Below are positions 5,320 to 59,099 of a stretch of DNA of 64,000 nucleotides, piece by piece; within the stretch, counting starts at the first letter, position 1; each line of letters opens with the position of its first letter. Source of the stretch: Pseudoalteromonas sp. GCY (lineage in GTDB: Bacteria > Pseudomonadota > Gammaproteobacteria > Enterobacterales > Alteromonadaceae); the NCBI RefSeq assembly GCF_016695175.1, contig NZ_CP068022.1, forward strand, positions 978,001 to 1,042,000. Reading direction: 5' to 3'. The position numbers and the translations under genes are program-made. The notes under the pieces were generated by a model, which was given only the letters and a program-made list of their open reading frames with translations, did no database searches and had not been told where the DNA came from.

Positions 5320-6951
5320 GTGTATTCGAGTTCTAACAACGTTGAATACATGGCAGCCAGTCAAAGCAACATGCTTCATCCTAGTCAGTCATTTAGCTTT
5401 AAGTACTTCTACCATATATCAGCGCTCTCCATGCTGCTTTTTTTTCTTTCTGTGGTGTTCACATTTTTGGCATTCGTCAATAAAGAAGCGCAAGAGCAAG
5501 AAATAGAAAGAAATTTTAATCTTGTTCGTTTATCCCAAGAGTTAAGACTCAGCTCAGATCAACTCACCATGATGGCTCGGGCTTATGCCGCCACGGGCAA
5601 CCCTAAGTTTAAGCAATTTTTTGATGAGATCTTAACGATCCGTAATGGCACTTCCCCCCGCCCTAAGCATTTGCACCGCGTCTATTGGGACATGTTGCTG
5701 GTCAAAGAGGGTCAAGCACCATTTGAAAAAGAAGCACCAAAAGCGCTGCTGACATTATTATTAGAAAACGGGGTTTCTACGGATGAATTAACTATGTTGC
5801 GAAATGCAGAGGATAAAAGTGAAGCACTCGTGTCACTTGAGCGTGAAGCCTTTGAACTAGTAGCAGCAGGGAAAAATCAACAGGCCCTCAAGATTTTGTA
5901 CAGCGAGGCTTACCTCCAAAGTAAAGTACAAATAATGACGCACATCAATGCCTTTTTAGAACGCAGAGAGCAGGATTTCAGCTCACTCCTTGCAAGCAGC
6001 AATAAAAAGGTAAAGTCCTATTATGGCGCCGCGTTTGTTTGTTTTATCTTGCTATTACTTAGTCTCATCGCGTTGTACAACTCTCGTTCGGCCATCCGTA
6101 AAAGTATTATTGATTATCTAAATACGGAGGTAAAAAGCCAAACTGAAGAGTTAATAGAAAAAAATAAAGCACTTAATCACGCGATCAGTGAACTCAGTGA
6201 GACTCAAAAGCGCCTGATAAACGCTGAAAAGTCAGCAACGCTGGTGCGATTGATCCCAGGACTTGCCCATGAGATTAACACGCCAATTGGCATCGCGATG
6301 ACCGCTTCCAGTAACCAACTATTACTTGTCGAAGGAGTAAGACAAAGGGTAAATAAAAATGAAATCGCCAAGTCTGCTTTATTGCATTCGATAGAAAATA
6401 TTGAAAGCTGTGCCAAGCTCGTCGTCAATAGTACCGAGCGGATCACCGGTATTATCGACAAGCTCAAAATTATCACCAATACTGGATTTGAGGGAGAAGT
6501 AAAGCCTGTTTACTTACAACCGCTTATCGCACATTGTGTGAGTGAGCTTGCCAATCAACACCCACATATTGATATTACCTTAGATATTCCCGAAGCATTT
6601 GCTATCACCGCCCCCGAAAGGTTGTTACAGCAGATCTTCCTTCCGGTGATCGAAAATGCGTTTTACCACGCCTTTGCTGATAACTCAGTGCAAAGCCCCT
6701 GCGTGATTATATCGGCTCAAGCCTCAAAACTTGGATATACGATTAAAGTCACGGACAATGGCGGCGGTATTCCACATGAAATCAAAGATAAAGTATTTGA
6801 TCCTTTTGTCGTCGGTAATCGCACACAAAAAGGCTTGGGTTTAGGGCTAAGTGTTGCGCTCGCTATCGTCACTCAGTATTTTAATGGTGTAATTGAGTGT
6901 GAAACGGAATCTAATTCCGGAACATGCATCATTATCAAGTTGCCGAGCTAG
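5320..6951 (+). CDS. Membrane sensor histidine kinase
   Basis: The protein has two transmembrane helices (about residues 30-50 and 230-250) bracketing a periplasmic helical sensor of about 180 residues. A coiled coil (about 265-305) and the kinase core follow. The H-box is AHEINTPIG, and the ATPase motifs are ENAFYHAF (N-box), DNGGGIP (G1) and GLGLGLSVAL (G2). No HAMP domain and no receiver domain are obvious. The track start is a GTG; ATG codons at 5350 and 5371 are alternatives, and none has a good ribosome binding site. No response regulator lies beside it, so the partner is elsewhere (orphan kinase). The signal is unknown. Confidence 0.85.
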   Translation: MYSSSNNVEYMAASQSNMLHPSQSFSFKYFYHISALSMLLFFLSVVFTFLAFVNKEAQEQEIERNFNLVRLSQELRLSSDQLTMMARAYAATGNPKFKQFFDEILTIRNGTSPRPKHLHRVYWDMLLVKEGQAPFEKEAPKALLTLLLENGVSTDELTMLRNAEDKSEALVSLEREAFELVAAGKNQQALKILYSEAYLQSKVQIMTHINAFLERREQDFSSLLASSNKKVKSYYGAAFVCFILLLLSLIALYNSRSAIRKSIIDYLNTEVKSQTEELIEKNKALNHAISELSETQKRLINAEKSATLVRLIPGLAHEINTPIGIAMTASSNQLLLVEGVRQRVNKNEIAKSALLHSIENIESCAKLVVNSTERITGIIDKLKIITNTGFEGEVKPVYLQPLIAHCVSELANQHPHIDITLDIPEAFAITAPERLLQQIFLPVIENAFYHAFADNSVQSPCVIISAQASKLGYTIKVTDNGGGIPHEIKDKVFDPFVVGNRTQKGLGLGLSVALAIVTQYFNGVIECETESNSGTCIIIKLPS

Positions 6952-12298: not shown

Positions 12299-13420
12299 TT
12301 AACGCTCAGAAATGGCAGGAACTGGACGTAGCTCCTCGCCGGTGTATTCCGCCGATGGACGAATGATACGGTTATCTGCGCGCTGCTCCATAACGTGTGC
12401 AGCCCAACCAGTTAAGCGTGACATAACAAAGATTGGTGTGAACAATTTAGTCGGGATCTTCATGAAGTTATAGGCTGATGCATGGAAGAAATCGGCATTA
12501 CAGAATAGTTTTTTCTCGCGCCACATGACTTCTTCACAGCGTACAGACACAGGGTAAAGTACTGTGTCACCGACATCTGCCGCTAGTTTTTCAGACCAAC
12601 GTTTGATGATTTCGTTACGAGGGTCACATTCTGAATAGATAGCGTGGCCAAAGCCCATGATCTTCTCTTTACGCTCAAGCATACCCATCATTTCTTGCTC
12701 TGCGTGATCCGCAGATTCAAAGCGCTCAATCATTTCCATTGCCGCTTCGTTAGCACCACCGTGAAGAGGACCTCGTAGAGAGCCAATTGCACCGGTAATA
12801 CAAGAATGCATATCAGAAAGCGTTGAGGCACAAACACGAGCAGTAAAGGTCGACGCGTTAAATTCGTGCTCTGCATAAAGGATAAGTGATACGTGCATCA
12901 CACGTTCATGGAGTTCACTTGGTTTTTCGCCGTGCAATAAGTGTAAGAAATGTGCACCGATTGAATCGTCATCCGTCTCCACATCGATACGAACGCCATC
13001 ATGGCTAAAGCGATACCAGTAACAAATAATGCTTGGAAAGCTTGCTAGCATGCGATCAGTTACTTTACCTTGCTCATCAAAGCTTGCTTCACCTTCAAGA
13101 TTGCCAAGCATTGAACAACCCGTACGTAATACGTCCATTGGATGTGCGTCAGCAGGAATACGTTCTAATACTTCTTTTAACGCCTGCGGCAAACCGCGCA
13201 TTGCTTTTAGCTCGCTTTTATAAGCGTCTAGTTCAGTTTGATTTGGTAAGTTACCTTTAAGGATAAGGTGAGCAACCTCCTCAAACTGACAATTTTCAGC
13301 TAGATCCTTTACATCGTAACCACGATAAGTCAAACCTGAGCCCGACTTACCTACCGTTGATAGTGCTGTTTTTCCTGCTACTTGACCACGAAGACCCGCG
13401 CCACTTAGTACTTTAGCCAT
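12299..13420 (-). CDS. prpC: 2-methylcitrate synthase PrpC
   Basis: A citrate-synthase family protein of 373 residues that condenses propionyl-CoA with oxaloacetate. Catalytic histidine regions are visible in GPLHGGANEAAM and MGFGHAIYSECDPR, and the substrate-arginine segment lies near the C-terminus (EQRADNRIIRPSAEY). The length suits the short methylcitrate-synthase group rather than the housekeeping GltA of about 430 residues. It is third in the operon, between prpB and acnD, with gaps of about 75 bases on each side. Confidence 0.95.
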   Translation of the reverse strand: MAKVLSGAGLRGQVAGKTALSTVGKSGSGLTYRGYDVKDLAENCQFEEVAHLILKGNLPNQTELDAYKSELKAMRGLPQALKEVLERIPADAHPMDVLRTGCSMLGNLEGEASFDEQGKVTDRMLASFPSIICYWYRFSHDGVRIDVETDDDSIGAHFLHLLHGEKPSELHERVMHVSLILYAEHEFNASTFTARVCASTLSDMHSCITGAIGSLRGPLHGGANEAAMEMIERFESADHAEQEMMGMLERKEKIMGFGHAIYSECDPRNEIIKRWSEKLAADVGDTVLYPVSVRCEEVMWREKKLFCNADFFHASAYNFMKIPTKLFTPIFVMSRLTGWAAHVMEQRADNRIIRPSAEYTGEELRPVPAISER

Positions 13421-19762: not shown

Positions 19763-19793
19763 ACAAAAAAAGCAAGCCTTAGCTTGCTTTTTC
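19763..19793 (-). terminator. Terminator of the cold-shock gene
   Basis: Stem AAGCAAGC/GCTTGCTT (19770-19777 with 19782-19789) has a 4-base loop and a seven-base T run on the minus strand. It lies 16 bases past the stop codon. Confidence 0.85.
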
Positions 19794-19809
19794 TTCATCA
19801 ATTAAGCGA

Positions 19810-20019
19810 TTAAAGCTTAACGATGTTCTCAGCTTGAGGACCTTTCTGGCCGTCAGTTACTGTGAATTCTACTCTCTCGCCTTCAGCAAGTGTACGGAAA
19901 CCGTCACCTTTGATTGCGCTGAAGTGTGCGAACACGTCAGGGCCATTTTCTTGAGCGATGAAACCAAAACCTTTAGACTCGTTAAACCACTTAACGGTAC
20001 CTGTAAGAGTGCTAGACAT
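19810..20019 (-). CDS. CspA-family cold-shock protein
   Basis: A 69-residue single cold-shock domain that binds single-stranded RNA/DNA. The RNP1 motif KGFGFI and RNP2 motif DVFAHFSAI are intact. The start at 20019 ([17 protein letters not shown]) gives the usual family length; the longer frame extends into the leader. The 350-base gene-free stretch upstream suggests the long 5' leader typical of cspA-type mRNAs. Confidence 0.95.
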
Positions 20020-20369
20020 AATACTAATCCTGATATAAAAACAAAAACCAATGCTGCGCATTGATGAGCTATGCCCATGTGGGCGCATAGACCTAAATTT
20101 GTAGAGTGGATAAAACTTCAGGACGGTACTACTACAAGCAAACACTTATACAACAACGTAATGGAGATTTTAAAACACTGACTCAAATTCTGTCTATGAA
20201 CATCATATAGGGATTCCGCCCTAAGTCAATGTATTTTTAATCATCAATATGACTTGCTAATGACAAATATCAATATTTTTTTGACCGCTTTTTCAACACC
20301 CTATTTTTAAAAATATTATTCCGCTAACCCCCCGTAAACAATAGAGATTGCAATAAAATATTCATAAAA
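20020..20369 (-). other. Gene-free stretch: cold-shock leader and gap
   Basis: The first part should be the 5' untranslated leader of the cold-shock gene. No independent coding frame is credible here. The exact promoter was not identified. Confidence 0.4.
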
Positions 20370-54119: not shown

Positions 54120-54331
54120 ACTACACCTCACTCAAATACTAGATCATCCGTCCAGAGCGTTTCTCTTCTTTAAAGTCACAACTGGTTAGACGATATTAAA
54201 CGAAGTTATCTGTTAAGCAGCGGGTGTCGTGGATTTCGCCGGGTAGAAACACTCGGCAATCGCCGGCTTTGAGCGTGTCTGTTCCTCGGGATACAGGGTG
54301 GGTTTCGCCGTTTGCTAATTGTGATGGGTGT
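54120..54331 (-). pseudogene. Duplicated 3' end of the cysteine-dioxygenase-like gene
   Basis: About 212 bases closely match 58583-58793, the 3' part of the gene at 58584-59099, including its stop codon. The upstream 5' part is absent. Substitutions and small indels show it is a non-functional copy in the same orientation as the gene. Confidence 0.85.
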
Positions 54332-54344
54332 CAGTTATTTTCCT

Positions 54345-55221
54345 TTGTAACCCTTGCAAACAGCTTCATCGTAAAAATCGTAGAAGATCTTACAAGCAAC
54401 TTATTCCCCCTCCATCACACCCGAAAAGCGTAAGCCGATATGCAATGTGCCGACAGGATGTCGGCCAAGTCTTGTCTGGCATCATGGACGTGCCTTACAA
54501 GACGGTTGCGATACCAATTGTATTAGGTAAATGAGCAATTTGAAGCGGAGAAATAGCTTTAGTAGCTCCGCTCTCGCGTCCTGCTACCGCCAAGGTACCT
54601 ATATCCATATAGGCAAGGCAAAAATTTTGCTATTTAGTTGTTCTAAATGAGAAATTTTTAACGACGCTAATATGGTATTTCACCCTTCAAATTGATTGGA
54701 GACTTAGTGCAATTGGTATTATATATCGGCTTAGGATTTGAGGATTGAGTGTGATGCTGGGGCGACGTTTTCTTGGTTCGCTCGATCGCGTCGTTTAAAA
54801 AGAATGAACGAGAAGCGTATGGATGCGCTTTGATACGTACCATGGAAGGTGATTTTTCCAAAAGACTCGAGACGATGAGTTAAGTCAGCCCGTCCTCCTG
54901 ACTGGTTTCGACGCCCCTCCATGGGCTACGACTTACTTTTCTTTGATGCCCAAAGAATCGTTGCGCAAAAGAAAGGGCACTCCCAACATCACACTGACTC
55001 CTCAAGTAAATCGCCAATATGAACGCCACCGCTGTGTAAGGGCCATCCTTGGCCCTGTCACAGCTTTTCACGCATCCATGCGTTGAAATGACTCATTGGC
55101 ACTTTACTTTCGGGTGTGATGAGGGAGGAAAACGGTGCTGATAGTGTTGTTTGGTGCTTGCAGGCAAATTTGCTGCTTTAGTAGATAAAACCAGAAACAA
55201 CGGTCAATACCACGCCCGAAA
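54345..55221. repeat. Structured repeat unit 1 (split by a MITE)
   Basis: First copy of the hairpin-rich unit (see the findings). Hairpins: 54449-54465, 54471-54501, 54813-54830, 54913-54926, 55031-55064 and 55066-55088. Its outer arms CATCACACCCGAAA/TTTCGGGTGTGATG are at 54413-54426 and 55108-55121. Short frames in it are not counted as genes. Confidence 0.85.
54510..54719. mobile_element. MITE inserted in repeat unit 1
   Basis: A 210-base insert bounded by ATACCAATTG (54511-54520) and CAATTGGTAT (54710-54719), absent at the same position in units 2 and 3. It has internal hairpins (AGCGGAG/CTCCGCT at 54544-54572; CCTATAT/ATATAGG at 54598-54613) and no coding frame. Confidence 0.8.
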
Positions 55222-55860
55222 AGCGTAGAAGATCTTACAAGCAACTTTATTCCCCCTCCATCACACCCGAAAAGCATAAGCCGATATGCAATGTGCCGAC
55301 AGGATGTCGGCCAAGTCTTGTCTGGCATCATGGATGTGCCATACAAGGCGGTTGCACTATATCGGCTTAGGATTTGAGGATTGAGTGTGATGCTGGGGCG
55401 ACGTTTTCTTGGTTCGCTCGATCGCGTCGTTTAAAAAGAATGAACGAGAAGCGTATGGATGCGCTTTGATACGAGCCATGGAAGGTGATTTTTCCAAAAG
55501 ACTCGAGACGACGAGTTAAGTCAGCCCGTCCTCCTGACTGGTTTCGACGCCCATCCATGGGCTACGACATACTTTTCTTTGATGCCCAAAGAACAAGTAT
55601 GCAAAAGAAAGGGCACTCCCGACATCACACTGACTCCTCAAGTAAATCGCCAATATGAACGTCACCGCTGTGTAAGGGCCATCCTTGGCCCTGTCACAGC
55701 TTTTCACGCATCCATGCGTTGAAATGACTCATTGGCACTTTACTTTCGGGTGTGATGAGGGAGGAAAACGGTGCTGATAGTGTTGTTTGGTGCTTGCAGG
55801 CAAATTTGCTGCTTTAGTAGATAAAACCAGAAACAACGGTCAATACCACGCCCGAAAAGC
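55222..55860. repeat. Structured repeat unit 2 (intact)
   Basis: Complete unit, about 636 bases downstream of unit 1 for the right half. Hairpins: 55295-55311, 55317-55347, 55449-55466, 55549-55562, 55667-55700 and 55702-55724. An 11-bp stem, 55277-55287 with 55359-55369, encloses the first two; a 14-bp outer stem is at 55259-55272 with 55744-55757. Confidence 0.85.
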
Positions 55861-55933
55861 GTAACTTCTCGGCGGGTGAACCGCCTCCCACAAAACGATT
55901 CAGATTGTGAGTTAGGAGACTATGCTGATAGTT

Positions 55934-56213
55934 TTTGTAACCCTTGCAAACAGCTTCATCGTAAAAACGTAGAAGATCTTACAAGCAACTTATTCCCCCT
56001 CCATCACACCCGAAAAGCGTAAGCCGATATGCAATGTGCCGACAGGATGTCGGCCAAGTCTTGTCTGGCACAGGGACGTGCCTTACAAGACGGTTGCACT
56101 ATATCGGCTTAGGATTTGAGGATTGAGTGTGATGCTGGGGCGACGTTTTCTTGGTTCGTTCTTTTTCGTCGTTTAAAAAGAATGAACGAGAAGCGCATGG
56201 ATGCGCTTTGATA
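55934..56213. repeat. Structured repeat unit 3 (truncated)
   Basis: Left half only: hairpins at 56038-56054 and 56191-56208 and the GGCA/TGCC hairpin between them. The right half with the second hairpin group and the outer arm is missing. The h4 hairpin here has a C-G pair where units 1 and 2 have U-G. Confidence 0.8.
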
Positions 56214-56349
56214 TTAGCCAAGGAGGGGATGCTTGATTAGGGCTGCTTTATAAAATCAAGTAGTTAACCTACTTAATTGCTCAGGCTAGCGGCCTCTGTG
56301 CGCGTAAAAAATATAATTGCTTATTAAGGCCAATTTAGGTGTAATGAAT

Positions 56350-56566
56350 ACATAACAAACGCTGAGCGATGCAGGGAAGCTTACATAACACTAGCTAAAC
56401 TGATTACACTAGCTAGGAAAGTGAGAGCCTCCAAAAAGCCTGTTTTTTCTAAGTAAGCCATAGCATAAACAACACCAACTCTGACACACCGAGCAGGTAG
56501 CGGCTCAGTCCAACAAGCGATTATGCAACACAAACTGCGTGTCGCATAAATACTAAAATGTTATGT
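56350..56566 (+). repeat. Possible degenerate attC region before the 56582 gene
   Basis: ACATAAC at 56350 and again at 56383, and its reverse complement GTTATGT at 56560-56566 directly before the next gene's ribosome binding site (AAGGAG). A strong hairpin (56521-56549) lies between. The layout resembles the end of an integron attC site but is longer than normal. Confidence 0.3.
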
Positions 56567-56581
56567 TTCTAAGGAGTATCG

Positions 56582-57529
56582 ATGACATTAGTTGTTGCCG
56601 GATATAATTTTGATCAAAACCCATGGCGAAGCATTGATAATATTAAAGAAAATACAGGGGTAAGGCAGGAAGGATTATTTGCAATAGCTGACAGTATAAT
56701 TACAAGCCTTAGTTCAAATGGACATTCTCCACTATTATCTGGATTCAAAAAAATTAAAGAAATACCTGTCAAGCTTTGGCAGCCTTACTTCATAGGGGAA
56801 AACTTCAAGTCATATAACAATGTTTTTTTGCAGTTTGAATGTTTTGTCGCTTTCGCTGGGAGCACCTTAACTGCACAGCATGTGATTGATTTAATATCTA
56901 ATCATTTAGCAACATTAAGAATAGATTTTCAAAGTGGAAACTTTGAAACCGATGGTAAGTATGTTGTAAAAAAAATCTGTGACTCCAATAACTTAATAAA
57001 AAATGCTCGTAGTTCAGTGTATGGCGATAATATGTTTATTCCTGAAAAACACTATCGCGGTATATTGACTGCAGAATACATCGCTGAAGTTGTCGAGCAC
57101 TCAATAAACAAGGCTTTAAGTTCAGCTCAAAAACATAAGCTAGATGAAAACTCACTGAAGGAAATGTACACAGAGTTCATTCTTGGTGTGAATTGTCCTT
57201 CATCTGAATCTGACCTTTTAATCAAATACACAATGAAGCAGCGGATAACCCTTGAGGGGATGATTGAAGTATATGTTGTGGGGGAGAAAATCCAAGAAGG
57301 TGATGTCGCAGTGATTGGGATGACTTCTCGATTTGGTGATTTAGCGCAAGATGCTGCTAAATCAGCAATTGAAAATGGATTGTCGCTAAAAAGCGAGATG
57401 ACTTCTTTCGTTAAAAAAGCAATAAGTGAAGTAAATGCCGAAGGCTCCTTTCAAATTGCTATGCCTGTAGTGGTTAAAAGCTTAAAAAGTAGAAGAATTA
57501 CAAAACAGGTAATCGCAGAAGAAACATAA
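56582..57529 (+). CDS. Possible proteasome-like Ntn-hydrolase
   Basis: A 315-residue protein beginning MTLVVAGYNF with GLFAIADSIIT about 30 residues later. This is like the start of proteasome beta/HslV/Ntn-hydrolases, where Thr2 becomes the N-terminal nucleophile and a DS pair follows. The rest (around 90-260) has no motif I can name. The stop TAA lies inside the 7-base ACATAAC box of the following attC-like site, as in cassette genes. Family assignment is tentative. Confidence 0.5.
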   Translation: MTLVVAGYNFDQNPWRSIDNIKENTGVRQEGLFAIADSIITSLSSNGHSPLLSGFKKIKEIPVKLWQPYFIGENFKSYNNVFLQFECFVAFAGSTLTAQHVIDLISNHLATLRIDFQSGNFETDGKYVVKKICDSNNLIKNARSSVYGDNMFIPEKHYRGILTAEYIAEVVEHSINKALSSAQKHKLDENSLKEMYTEFILGVNCPSSESDLLIKYTMKQRITLEGMIEVYVVGEKIQEGDVAVIGMTSRFGDLAQDAAKSAIENGLSLKSEMTSFVKKAISEVNAEGSFQIAMPVVVKSLKSRRITKQVIAEET

Positions 57530-57555
57530 CACATATGAACCTTATCCGGTCAAGT
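57524..57555 (+). repeat. Truncated attC-like site after the 56582 gene
   Basis: ACATAAC (57524-57530), a five-base spacer and TGAAC match the left half of the site at 58332-58397. The repeat shared with 58324-58363 covers 57515-57555. The right half is replaced by IS110-derived DNA. Confidence 0.4.
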
Positions 57556-57565
57556 AAGCATAACG

Positions 57566-57732
57566 ATATCTTTGAGATAGGGCGAAATCAGTCTAAGTAA
57601 TTCATGTTTATCAGCTTTTATTTTCTGATGAACAACTTTATTACCACGCTCATCAATAATGCAAACGTATAAAGTGCGTGCATGAAGGTCAATTCCACAA
57701 TAATATTTATGAAAAGTAGTATAGAATTTCAT
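57566..57732 (-). pseudogene. IS110-family transposase, N-terminal remnant
   Basis: Minus-strand translation gives YCGIDLHARTLYVCIIDERG, then NKVVHQKIKADKHELLRLIS and PYLKDIV before homology stops. This is the DEDD RuvC-like N-terminus of IS110/IS1111 transposases, of about 340 residues, with only 55-60 left. The first catalytic Asp is in GIDLH. It is not functional. Confidence 0.9.
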
Positions 57733-57894
57733 TGAGCTTTCTCCTTTGGGTTTCGTCGCCTTGAAGTTTAGCTGTTCGCTAAACTTCGGGGAGAAGGTTC
57801 AATAAGTATCAAACGCTTCAACCAAGGACGCAAAACAGCAGGCTAGCGCTCCTTCGTCGCTAATTTTAGCCTGCTATTTTGCGCCGGTTAAGCG
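57733..57894 (-). ncRNA. Structured IS110 left-end-like region (possible bridge-RNA remnant)
   Basis: Upstream of the transposase start there is a 9-bp hairpin GAAGTTTAG/CTAAACTTC (57762-57786) and a strong 81-base hairpin (57814-57894) whose 17-bp arms 57829-57845 and 57867-57883 differ at one position. IS110-group elements encode their bridge RNA in this position. The second hairpin also looks like an attC site (CGCTTCAAC/GTTAAGCG ends), so the call is open. Confidence 0.35.
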
Positions 57895-57926
57895 AGGCTT
57901 TAGATTCATGGAGCATGGAATCAAAA

Positions 57927-58337
57927 ATGAACGTTGAGTCTGTAAAAGAAGCAATAGCTGAATTTGATACTAAATTTAAACGTCCAGGGATAGATTCCCT
58001 AGTTGAATGCTTTCAATCAACTACTGTGACTCAAAGCAACTGGTCCTCGCTTTGGGCTGATAAAGGATTACTACGTACTTATACTGATGAGCCTTGTGTG
58101 TATTTCTTTTTTAATAATAAAGAAGAACTACAGTATATTGGTAAAGCTGAGATCCTCGGTTACCGCATGAGTAAGCACTTCGCTAAAAACTCTAAGTGGT
58201 ATGATGAGGTTAAAACAATCGGTATTCTGCCAGTCCCAAGGGATTCGTGGTTTGAAATTGTGGCTATCGAGGCGTATTTAATTGATTTATTGCGACCCCC
58301 AGCAAATAGTATAGGGAAAAATAGCAGAAGAACCTAA
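57927..58337 (+). CDS. GIY-YIG nuclease-like protein
   Basis: A 136-residue protein. The GIY-YIG core reads CVYFFF...LQYIGKAEILGYRMSKHF, with EAYLIDLL and PANS giving the late Glu and Asn. The first Gly of GIY is Cys here. The start at 57927 has GGAA six bases in front; upstream in-frame codons would run into the hairpin at 57814-57894. Its stop TAA lies in the next attC-like box. Likely a small nuclease or restriction-like cassette protein. Confidence 0.7.
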   Translation: MNVESVKEAIAEFDTKFKRPGIDSLVECFQSTTVTQSNWSSLWADKGLLRTYTDEPCVYFFFNNKEELQYIGKAEILGYRMSKHFAKNSKWYDEVKTIGILPVPRDSWFEIVAIEAYLIDLLRPPANSIGKNSRRT

Positions 58338-58397
58338 CACATATGAACCTTCTCCGGTCAAGTTGCCAACGCTTAAACCTGTTCAACTTCGTTATGT
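58332..58397 (+). repeat. Integron attC-like site after the GIY-YIG gene
   Basis: R''-type box ACCTAAC (58332-58338), five-base spacer, TGAAC; then GTTCA, five-base spacer and R'-type box GTTATGT (58391-58397). The boxes pair at six of seven positions and the total of 66 bases is in the attC range. The TAA stop codon lies in the first box. Confidence 0.5.
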
Positions 58398-58583
58398 CAG
58401 TTAGCCGTTAAAATCGCTTACGGCAAACACATATAGGGGCGTTACGCCATAATCTCCTATTGCGTTCCAATCGCTACCTAAATCAGTAGATACAACTTAT
58501 TGTTTATAGCCCCTTCAAAACTGCATGATTAGATGTCAGCAACGACAATTAAACCAACTATCGCCTTGAGTTTTTGCAAACCA

Positions 58584-59099
58584 CTACACCTCACTCAAAT
58601 ACTGGATCATCCGTCCTGAGCGTTTCTCTTCTTTAAAGTCACAACTGGTTAAACGATATTGAACGAAGTTATCTGTTAAGCAGCGGGTGTCGTGTATATC
58701 GCCGGGTAGAAACACTCGGCAATCGCCGGCTTTGAGCGTGTCTGTTCCTCTGGATACGAGGTGGGTTTCGCCGTTTGCTGTGGTGATGGGTTTGTAAGTT
58801 GTCATTTTCATTTCACCAGATTGCACGGCATAAAATACCCAACCTGCGCCGTGATCATGGGGCGGGCGGTACGTGCCCTTTTCTTCGGCATGGACTAGCA
58901 GCATAAAACCATATTCAGGGTCTTGGTAGAGTGTTTTTGATGCCAGCCTTTCACGCATAATGCTCGCAAGCCAAGGCTCGTGCGGTGAAGACTGAGTAAG
59001 TTCGCTTAACAACTCACGTACTGTTACTGTGGTGCTTGAATTTAACCCGCTCCAGTTGGCTTTTATATCATTGACGATTTTATCTAAGCTATTTTGCAT
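58584..59099 (-). CDS. Cysteine-dioxygenase-family cupin
   Basis: A 171-residue protein of the CDO/PCYF fold, a non-haem iron thiol dioxygenase. Iron ligands His81 and His83 are in PPHDHGAGW and His136 is in GDIHDTR, the three-His pattern of the family. It probably oxidises cysteine or a thiol such as mercaptopropionate. A promoter with the MerR-type 19-base spacer precedes it. Its 3' end is duplicated at 54120-54331. Confidence 0.85.
   Translation of the reverse strand: MQNSLDKIVNDIKANWSGLNSSTTVTVRELLSELTQSSPHEPWLASIMRERLASKTLYQDPEYGFMLLVHAEEKGTYRPPHDHGAGWVFYAVQSGEMKMTTYKPITTANGETHLVSRGTDTLKAGDCRVFLPGDIHDTRCLTDNFVQYRLTSCDFKEEKRSGRMIQYLSEV

Follow-up and report, generated by a model that had tools for sequence, protein, structure and literature searches.

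TwoAYGGAY hairpin arms as possible structured ends of exchangeable anti-phage and secretion modules in Pseudoalteromonas

What is a densely folded, non-coding repeat array doing at the edge of a small genomic island? The question is raised by a stretch of 64,000 nucleotides (nt) from Pseudoalteromonas sp. GCY (contig NZ_CP068022.1, positions 978,001 to 1,042,000; hereafter the window), in which positions 54344-56227 hold three copies of a hairpin-rich unit, the third of them partial. A sequence-only reading of this DNA had noticed the GGA loops of the hairpins and suggested a CsrA-sponge-like RNA, a mobile non-coding element or both. The units are built from TwoAYGGAY (RF01731), a motif reportedly described by Weinberg in 2010 and for which we found no tested function in the literature. 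On the basis of comparisons among genomes, we propose that the TwoAYGGAY-containing halves of the unit, here called arms, are the structured ends of an exchangeable, cargo-bracketing module that has no integrase of its own, a proposal to which we give an even chance.

Each unit of about 650 nt contains two TwoAYGGAY copies in opposite orientation. A cmscan search against Rfam 15 returned five matches in the window, three of them above the gathering score of the family (43 bits), and because these sit on both strands the unit is read as a plus-oriented arm followed by a minus-oriented arm, with their outer parts joined. Copies 1 and 2 are 96% identical across 300 nt, and over 157 nt copy 1 is 82% and copy 3 is 91% identical to copy 2; copy 1 is interrupted by an insertion of about 210 nt that resembles a miniature inverted-repeat transposable element (MITE; Table 1). 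In the folds of both orientations, CATCACAC pairs with GTGTGATG at the base of the arm, followed by an extended internal stem and a pair of GGA-loop hairpins; the plus arm has a third GGA hairpin further out. The whole unit (55220-55870) folds at -259.8 kcal/mol (z -10.3, 20 shuffles), the plus-strand arm (z -5.4) is equalled by none of 200 shuffles and the minus-strand arm (z -4.5) by one of 200.

The sequence-only reading holds with respect to the repeated non-coding unit, whose overlapping open reading frames reach only 60-80 amino acids (aa), to the hairpins that it named on the plus strand and to the NGGA-loop hairpins of the minus strand. Its period of about 0.6 kb is a genuine repeat but does not look like the natural unit: the copy nearest the downstream gene, or the sole copy, matches only to unit position 266-267 at seven of eight loci in the genome (the exception is L031), so that the arm fits better. 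What it took for an outer inverted repeat enclosing a unit, CATCACACCCGAAA/TTTCGGGTGTGATG, turned out to be the inner edge of two different arms. The U-G to C-G replacement in the third hairpin, offered as stem pairs changing together, is one-sided and not a compensatory double change; compensatory evidence is supplied instead by homologues, as described below. Degraded protein genes were rejected as an origin of the array, since its frames are short and overlapping and the homologues, which are not remains of protein genes, keep their paired stems.

RF01731 matches (E ≤ 1e-3) are present in 23 of 35 other genomes of the genus, a lower bound in that BLAST with an arm additionally finds one in genome G013, and class-wide, under strict filters, in 24 of 369 genomes with the window's own counted. 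Six genomes beyond the genus, scanned in full, contain 15, 10, 14, 30, 20 and 6 matches. The arms are predominantly paired outward. With the strands of two neighbours written in order of position, the relatives have 14 '-+' and no '+-' pairs within 20 kb, along with five '--' and six '++', and 12 of the 14 outward pairs enclose 2-17 kb; in the six distant genomes there are 19 '-+' versus no '+-' pairs within 600 nt, and 21 versus 5 within 20 kb. Altogether, neighbours within 20 kb outside the host genome point outward in 35 cases and inward in 5, and lie on the same strand in 14. Many of the distant matches belong to compact palindromic units of about 600-690 nt, in which two different arms, with folds that look equivalent by eye, flank a short centre. 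Such cargo-free units are dispersed in Guyparkeria-type genomes, where they share TTTCGC termini (read by eye), and in genome G145; the BLAST matches, which number 12-48 in ten of the 11 Guyparkeria-group genomes, are pieces of a flank-containing query and not copy numbers. A 204-nt inverted repeat of 85% identity is present in an island of G006. In the centre of one G145 unit (L164) a different hairpin repeat, starting GTAGCCTGGATGG, is inserted.

The DNA between outward arms in Pseudoalteromonas often carries anti-phage genes. Twelve outward-bracketed islands larger than 2 kb comprise 62 frames of at least 90 aa in an open reading frame listing, and 11 of the 12 carry a known or candidate anti-phage gene according to PADLOC searches with hand-picked proteins (Table 1). 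Thirty cargo proteins were picked, 28 inside 11 of the islands and two between same-strand arms in L072; 25 of the 30 match PADLOC (E ≤ 1e-5), versus 4 of 10 hand-picked flanking proteins, none of these above 63 bits, and at 80 bits or more the counts are 23 of 30 versus none of 10 (Fisher 2e-5). Ten further proteins, from the window, the host genome, L137, L080 and L085, gave four PADLOC matches, two of them under 27 bits. No published link between TwoAYGGAY and defence islands was found in the open-access library that was searched. Because outward pairs bracket anti-phage and weapon genes, TwoAYGGAY looks like the edge of a movable module and not like a lone regulatory RNA. A protein of 614 aa recurs beside arms (L067, 3746-5590; L070, 7908-9752; the first 30 residues are the same); its L067 copy has no Pfam or PADLOC match, and we regard the gene as a candidate new defence gene.

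In the host genome (5.47 Mb, two contigs), 29 BLAST matches to the unit group into eight loci, seven of which contain 21 TwoAYGGAY matches. Five loci adjoin type VI secretion effector or defence genes: at three, an arm lies directly upstream of a vgrG-type gene (Phage_GPD domain) followed by immunity genes, two of the three vgrG-type genes having nuclease-type C-terminal domains, while a fourth locus adjoins a DNase-type effector and a fifth a HEC-08/DUF3644 defence gene. The three vgrG blocks are duplicates, 94-95% identical from the arm through the upstream region to the gene start and 98-99% identical over the first 2600 nt of vgrG. In a BLAST search of 72,556 plasmid records (E ≤ 1e-5), related DNA occurs only in Pseudoalteromonas, and Pseudoalteromonas piscicida 2515 matches the entire unit at 94% identity. 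A phage origin was rejected, as a search of 50,697 phage records with one arm as query returned no match.

One hotspot, flanked by a LysR gene on one side and by a methyltransferase/HNH gene pair on the other, can be followed through named strains, where its cargo includes Dnd genes, ABC-three-component genes and DEAD/DEAH helicases, among others. Arms are found on both sides in 14 of 18 loci compared, outward in all 14, and on one side only in four; 17 of the 18 have at least one of the flanking genes of the hotspot, the set overlaps that of the relatives' pairs, and L067 and L195 are near-duplicates. Among 11 strains, 54 of the 55 pairwise comparisons show higher identity for the HNH-side arms than for the methyltransferase gene next to them (median 0.91 versus 0.81), which fits horizontal exchange or an unusually strong constraint on the sequence. 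With its copies dispersed, paired outward and bracketing variable cargo, and with this likeness of arms across strains, the mobile element appears to be the better supported half of what the sequence-only reading had suggested. REP-like (repetitive extragenic palindromic) sequences (GTAGGCGCAGAGCTTGCTCGCGCG and similar) lie beside hotspot arms, between host gene and arm in L092, L093 and L097 and in the flanks of L074/L247.

The stems themselves are conserved as structure. In 24 arms, nearly all of Pseudoalteromonas type, 26 of 40 consensus pairs show a double compensatory change and 24 of the 40 have Watson-Crick types that differ on both sides; the analysis was limited to these arms because MAFFT alignment across all lineages misaligned the hairpins. 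Watson-Crick pairs make up 95% of those in 131 loop-anchored hairpins, and all four types are represented at every stem position from 3 to 6. The loop is GGA in 93 of 147 strict core hairpins (chance hairpins included), CGA in 10, eight of which come from Guyparkeria-type genomes and G145, and something else in 44. If one strand were selected as RNA, G-U pairs should exceed A-C pairs. The strict arm hairpins (n = 145) have 38 G-U and 44 A-C, compared with 43 and 14 in hairpins of CsrB RNAs from the same taxonomic order, counted with the same script (n = 82, from the best 20 of 29 matches; Fisher 8e-4), and strict hairpins give 37 and 43 in the core and 26 and 25 in the outer parts. This comparison leans toward a constraint at the level of DNA or on both strands, short of proof.

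A mechanism compatible with these data can be outlined as follows. TwoAYGGAY would be the conserved core of an arm of about 250-400 nt of nested hairpins, itself one end of a two-armed palindromic element. Two outward arms would enclose either a short centre, as in the empty units of about 600-690 nt of Guyparkeria-type genomes and G145, or the 2-17 kb of cargo, often anti-phage systems, seen in Pseudoalteromonas; the array in the window is a tandem pile of such arms, with which a small island begins on its left side. The arms may mark the ends at which modules without a recombinase of their own are recognised and recombined; they would fold into the GGA-loop structure as single-stranded DNA, as an extruded cruciform or as a transcript, and the cargo could be swapped between them by a factor supplied in trans or by RecA-dependent recombination of resident and incoming arms, for instance after DNA uptake. 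If this is true, TwoAYGGAY would shift from a presumed regulatory or CsrA-binding RNA to a boundary of mobile immune and weapon modules, pairs of outward arms would offer a DNA signature for finding uncharacterised defence genes between them, and the question of how islands without integrases move would be raised. In a more speculative form, which we think rather unlikely, the arms would define an undescribed class of integrase-less cassettes, their folded outward ends read as single-stranded DNA and perhaps, as RNA, by CsrA, so that anti-phage and type VI secretion modules are exchanged between species and mobility and Gac/Rsm control reside in one structure.

A number of observations weigh against module ends. 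Concerning the cargo, two of the 30 proteins, viperin included, lie between same-strand arms, and the cargo of L078 is not defence-like: one of its seven proteins matches PADLOC (best score 135.9 bits), a match that we read as a generic transporter ATPase because one protein matches 19 ATPase-type models. PADLOC searches covered 35 of the 62 frames inside the islands, and the 24 that match are no unbiased rate, the proteins having been picked by hand. Concerning arrangement, same-strand tandems and solo arms are common, opposite-strand neighbours in the host genome number 7 '-+' versus 5 '+-', and the three vgrG genes there sit just past the outer end of an arm. At one Guyparkeria-type site a unit and two open frames stand where a relative has 135 nt, the frames being beside the unit and not inside it. 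Concerning mobility, the identity of the hotspot arms may be inflated, since one of them served as the standard of similarity by which they were chosen; comparisons at a Guyparkeria-type unit and the G009 island gave no exact ends and yielded neither a clean empty site nor a target duplication; and no recombinase tied to the arms was recognised in the part of the cargo that was scanned. Insertion sequence-like frames are present in L068. When another ten proteins were searched with Pfam, the sole hit related to mobility was weak, a relaxase-like match of 23.6 bits (cut-off 24.6) next to a solo arm. Y1 transposases were detected in nine of the 12 genomes having RF01731 matches, as they were in every one of the ten tested genomes that had no such match.

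The strand comparison has its contrary results as well. Loose hairpins gave 320 G-U versus 272 A-C in the core (p 0.05) and pulled the opposite way in the outer parts (906 versus 1106); being noisy and contradictory, they were replaced by strict hairpins. Terminator-like hairpins, the first control, were expected to be asymmetric and gave 32 and 27, so CsrB RNAs took their place. Loop-anchored hairpins have 27 G-U and 21 A-C (Fisher 0.06 versus CsrB), and fixed alignment columns 28 and 14 (p 0.04), falling to 20 and 8 when L078 is excluded and to 13 and 8 when one column pair is left out too. Finally, template switching by a polymerase could perfect DNA palindromes without any function.

Among other explanations, the one that survives best is that the arms are transcribed and their NGGA loops bind CsrA/RsmA, acting as a sponge to release the mRNAs of type VI secretion and defence or else belonging to a leader, each module thereby bringing its own link to Gac/Rsm; we consider this somewhat unlikely, although CsrA binding is live both as a rival and as a second role beside module ends. 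RF01731 is placed in Rfam clan CL00106, which we take to be the CsrA clan, the host genome has one csrA gene, most strict core loops are GGA and the fixed-column count leans to the sense strand. A 2014 article proposes TwoAYGGAY and the reverse complement of Bacillaceae-1 as CsrA-binding (PMC4333381), and a preprint has Gac/Rsm controlling type VI secretion and defence together in Pseudomonas (PMC11888443). A weak Bacillaceae-1 match (56039-56102, minus strand; 25 bits, gathering score 35, E 0.1) lies opposite the plus-strand core of copy 3, a placement that echoes this published reverse-complement relation. At the three vgrG loci, about 208 nt separate the end of a sense-oriented arm from the start of the gene, and there the arm may conceivably act as a leader. 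As a general rule, a 5' leader of cargo genes was rejected: of the 24 arm ends in the 12 islands, 20 have as their closest cargo frame one that is directed inward and lies on the other strand from the arm (counted by eye). Further points against CsrA are the CGA loops, the lack of the G-U excess of CsrB in strict hairpins, and the signals in the array, where window positions 54300-56600 have no terminator-like and one promoter-like site, fewer than in shuffles (2.2 and 3.0; simple sigma-70 consensus scan). A search of the host genome with RF00018 found no CsrB at its sensitivity. A sponge explains neither why the arms pair outward nor why they bracket cargo.

It is improbable that the arms are bidirectional transcription insulators, in which case they would be structured boundaries kept at the edges of islands because they block read-through that enters or leaves costly cargo. 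Such a role would suit the strong hairpins present on either strand, the location of arms at cargo edges and the near-equal numbers of G-U and A-C in strict hairpins, which are to be expected when the RNA of both strands is important, but the array in the window has no U-tract terminator, insulation requires neither conserved GGA loops nor a two-hairpin core, and the dispersed units of Guyparkeria-type genomes and G145 have no cargo to insulate.

We find it very improbable that the arms are repeats of a REPIN/BIME-like or TIRtron-like kind that a Y1 (RAYT-type) transposase mobilises. They are dispersed, structure-conserved inverted pairs of palindromes arranged like REP dimers, REP-like GTAG palindromes adjoin some of them, and CGTC REPs without a dedicated transposase are described in PMC3733652. 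The arms are nevertheless some ten times the size of a REP, no Y1 gene lies within 7.8 kb of the arms entered, the nearest being at that distance, and no Y1 match was obtained in three of the 12 arm genomes, including the single-contig genome G421 with ten RF01731 matches. RAYT mobilisation was rejected, no Y1 association being seen, although the comparison with arm-free genomes is weak because one of the ten chosen, G013, has an arm by BLAST. Passive hitchhiking, in which an old, ordinary repeat travels with duplicated intergenic DNA such as the vgrG block in hotspots exchanged through homology of their flanking genes, is hardly credible: the vgrG-proximal arms do belong to one duplicated block and the flanking genes of the hotspot are conserved, but it predicts neither the outward bias (35 versus 5), nor pairing in distant genomes, nor arms more alike than the gene next to them.

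Module ends of this kind would resemble several known systems without coinciding with any. Integron attC sites are folded recombination sites that carry defence and type VI secretion cargo without an integrase of their own, one per cassette and in direct orientation; the arms share the folding, the cargo and the missing integrase but are mostly inverted pairs of different fold. Gamma-Mobile-Trio (GMT) islands, said to have been reported by Mahata in 2024, are likewise rich in defence and type VI secretion genes in gammaproteobacteria, and differ in that they reportedly encode their own mobility proteins; none of these was recognised in the part of the cargo scanned, for which no gmt model was used. 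The CsrB/CsrC and RsmX/Y/Z sponges also have multiple GGA-loop hairpins, whereas the arms are dispersed inverted pairs at island edges and the array in the window has no terminator and no excess of promoters. The original TwoAYGGAY motif has two GGA-loop hairpins on a joined base stem, as here, and is filed by Rfam as cis-regulatory; the present copies are each half of an inverted pair in a larger palindromic unit, have extra outer hairpins and, in relatives, bracket cargo. PMC2864571 judges the motif probably an RNA and probably not cis-regulatory, with occurrences in the human gut, gammaproteobacteria and Clostridiales, and two further articles add covarying pairs that extend one of its helices (PMC11701678, PMC7657543). 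REP dimers, CGTC REPs and TIRtrons (PMC3733652) are dispersed inverted palindromic dimers too, the CGTC REPs likewise without a dedicated transposase, but REPs measure 20-40 bp whereas the arms are multibranched, about 250-400 nt long and able to enclose many kilobases of cargo. Bacterial MITEs, of 70-300 bp with terminal repeats of 15-30 bp in the same source (PMC3733652), are similarly non-coding and dispersed with inverted-repeat ends; the arms far exceed such repeats, and no target duplication or parent transposase was found in the loci and cargo compared.

Table 1. Features of the array and its island (window coordinates) and PADLOC assignments of cargo at arm-bracketed loci
Feature	Location	Strand	Basis or remark
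Left copy of the 197-nt direct repeat bounding the island (array and two genes)	54120-54316		95% identical to right copy
Unit copy 1: plus arm, outer parts, minus arm	54344-55219	+	unit comparison
TwoAYGGAY core, copy 1 plus arm	54442-54509	+	41.1 bits, below gathering score 43
MITE-like insertion in copy 1, inverted ends of CAATTGGTAT type	54510-54721		not in copy 2
Third hairpin of copy 1 (AAGCGTA-TGGA-TGCGCTT), in the outer portion of its plus arm	54813-54830	+	read from sequence
TwoAYGGAY, copy 1 minus arm	54993-55121	-	53.3 bits
Unit copy 2, complete	55220-55869	+	unit comparison
TwoAYGGAY, copy 2 plus arm	55270-55376	+	42.8 bits, just under gathering score 43
Third hairpin, copy 2	55449-55466	+	read from sequence
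TwoAYGGAY, copy 2 minus arm	55629-55757	-	55.4 bits
Unit copy 3, plus arm only, match ending at unit position 266	55934-56227	+	unit comparison
TwoAYGGAY core, copy 3	56031-56097	+	48.8 bits
Third hairpin, copy 3, with C-G in place of the U-G of copies 1 and 2	56191-56208	+	read from sequence
First island gene after the array, encoding a 315-aa protein of unknown family	56582-57529	+	no Pfam, PADLOC or PDB match
Short IS110-transposase-like fragment	57550-57732	-	translation read by eye, no family search
GIY-YIG domain protein, second island gene	57879-58337	+	PF01541, 31.3 bits; no PADLOC match
197-nt direct repeat, right copy, corresponding to the 3' end of minus-strand gene 58584-59099	58583-58779		repeat comparison
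SIR2, HerA, type IV restriction enzyme	L067		PADLOC
RdrA in two pieces, RdrB (RADAR)	L068		PADLOC
PDC-M11B	L069		PADLOC
Restriction-modification	L070, L076		PADLOC
NsnA	L071		PADLOC
Lamassu	L072, L073, L075		PADLOC
PDC-S20	L074		PADLOC
SspA, C and D	L077		PADLOC
Viperin, PADLOC 'Ankyrin' family	L072, outside the outward pair, between same-strand arms		PADLOC

The island around the array has features of its own. Its two genes have no PADLOC match, and a 33-nt repeat (94% identity) directly follows each of them, at 57523-57555 and 58331-58363, a possible cassette end or shared downstream element. In P. piscicida 2515 the 197-nt repeat occurs three times, the third within the gene itself, with other DNA in between, and for this reason the island site appears to be itself modular. 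At L196, repeats of 197-280 nt derived from the 3' end of the same gene (1268-1489, 6345-6565 and 12684-12913) bound successive modules, a pattern that looks like repeated insertion at the 3' end of a gene, with no integrase noticed there. Elsewhere in the window, positions 19764-20212 of the minus strand match the cspA thermoregulator RNA with 83.5 bits.

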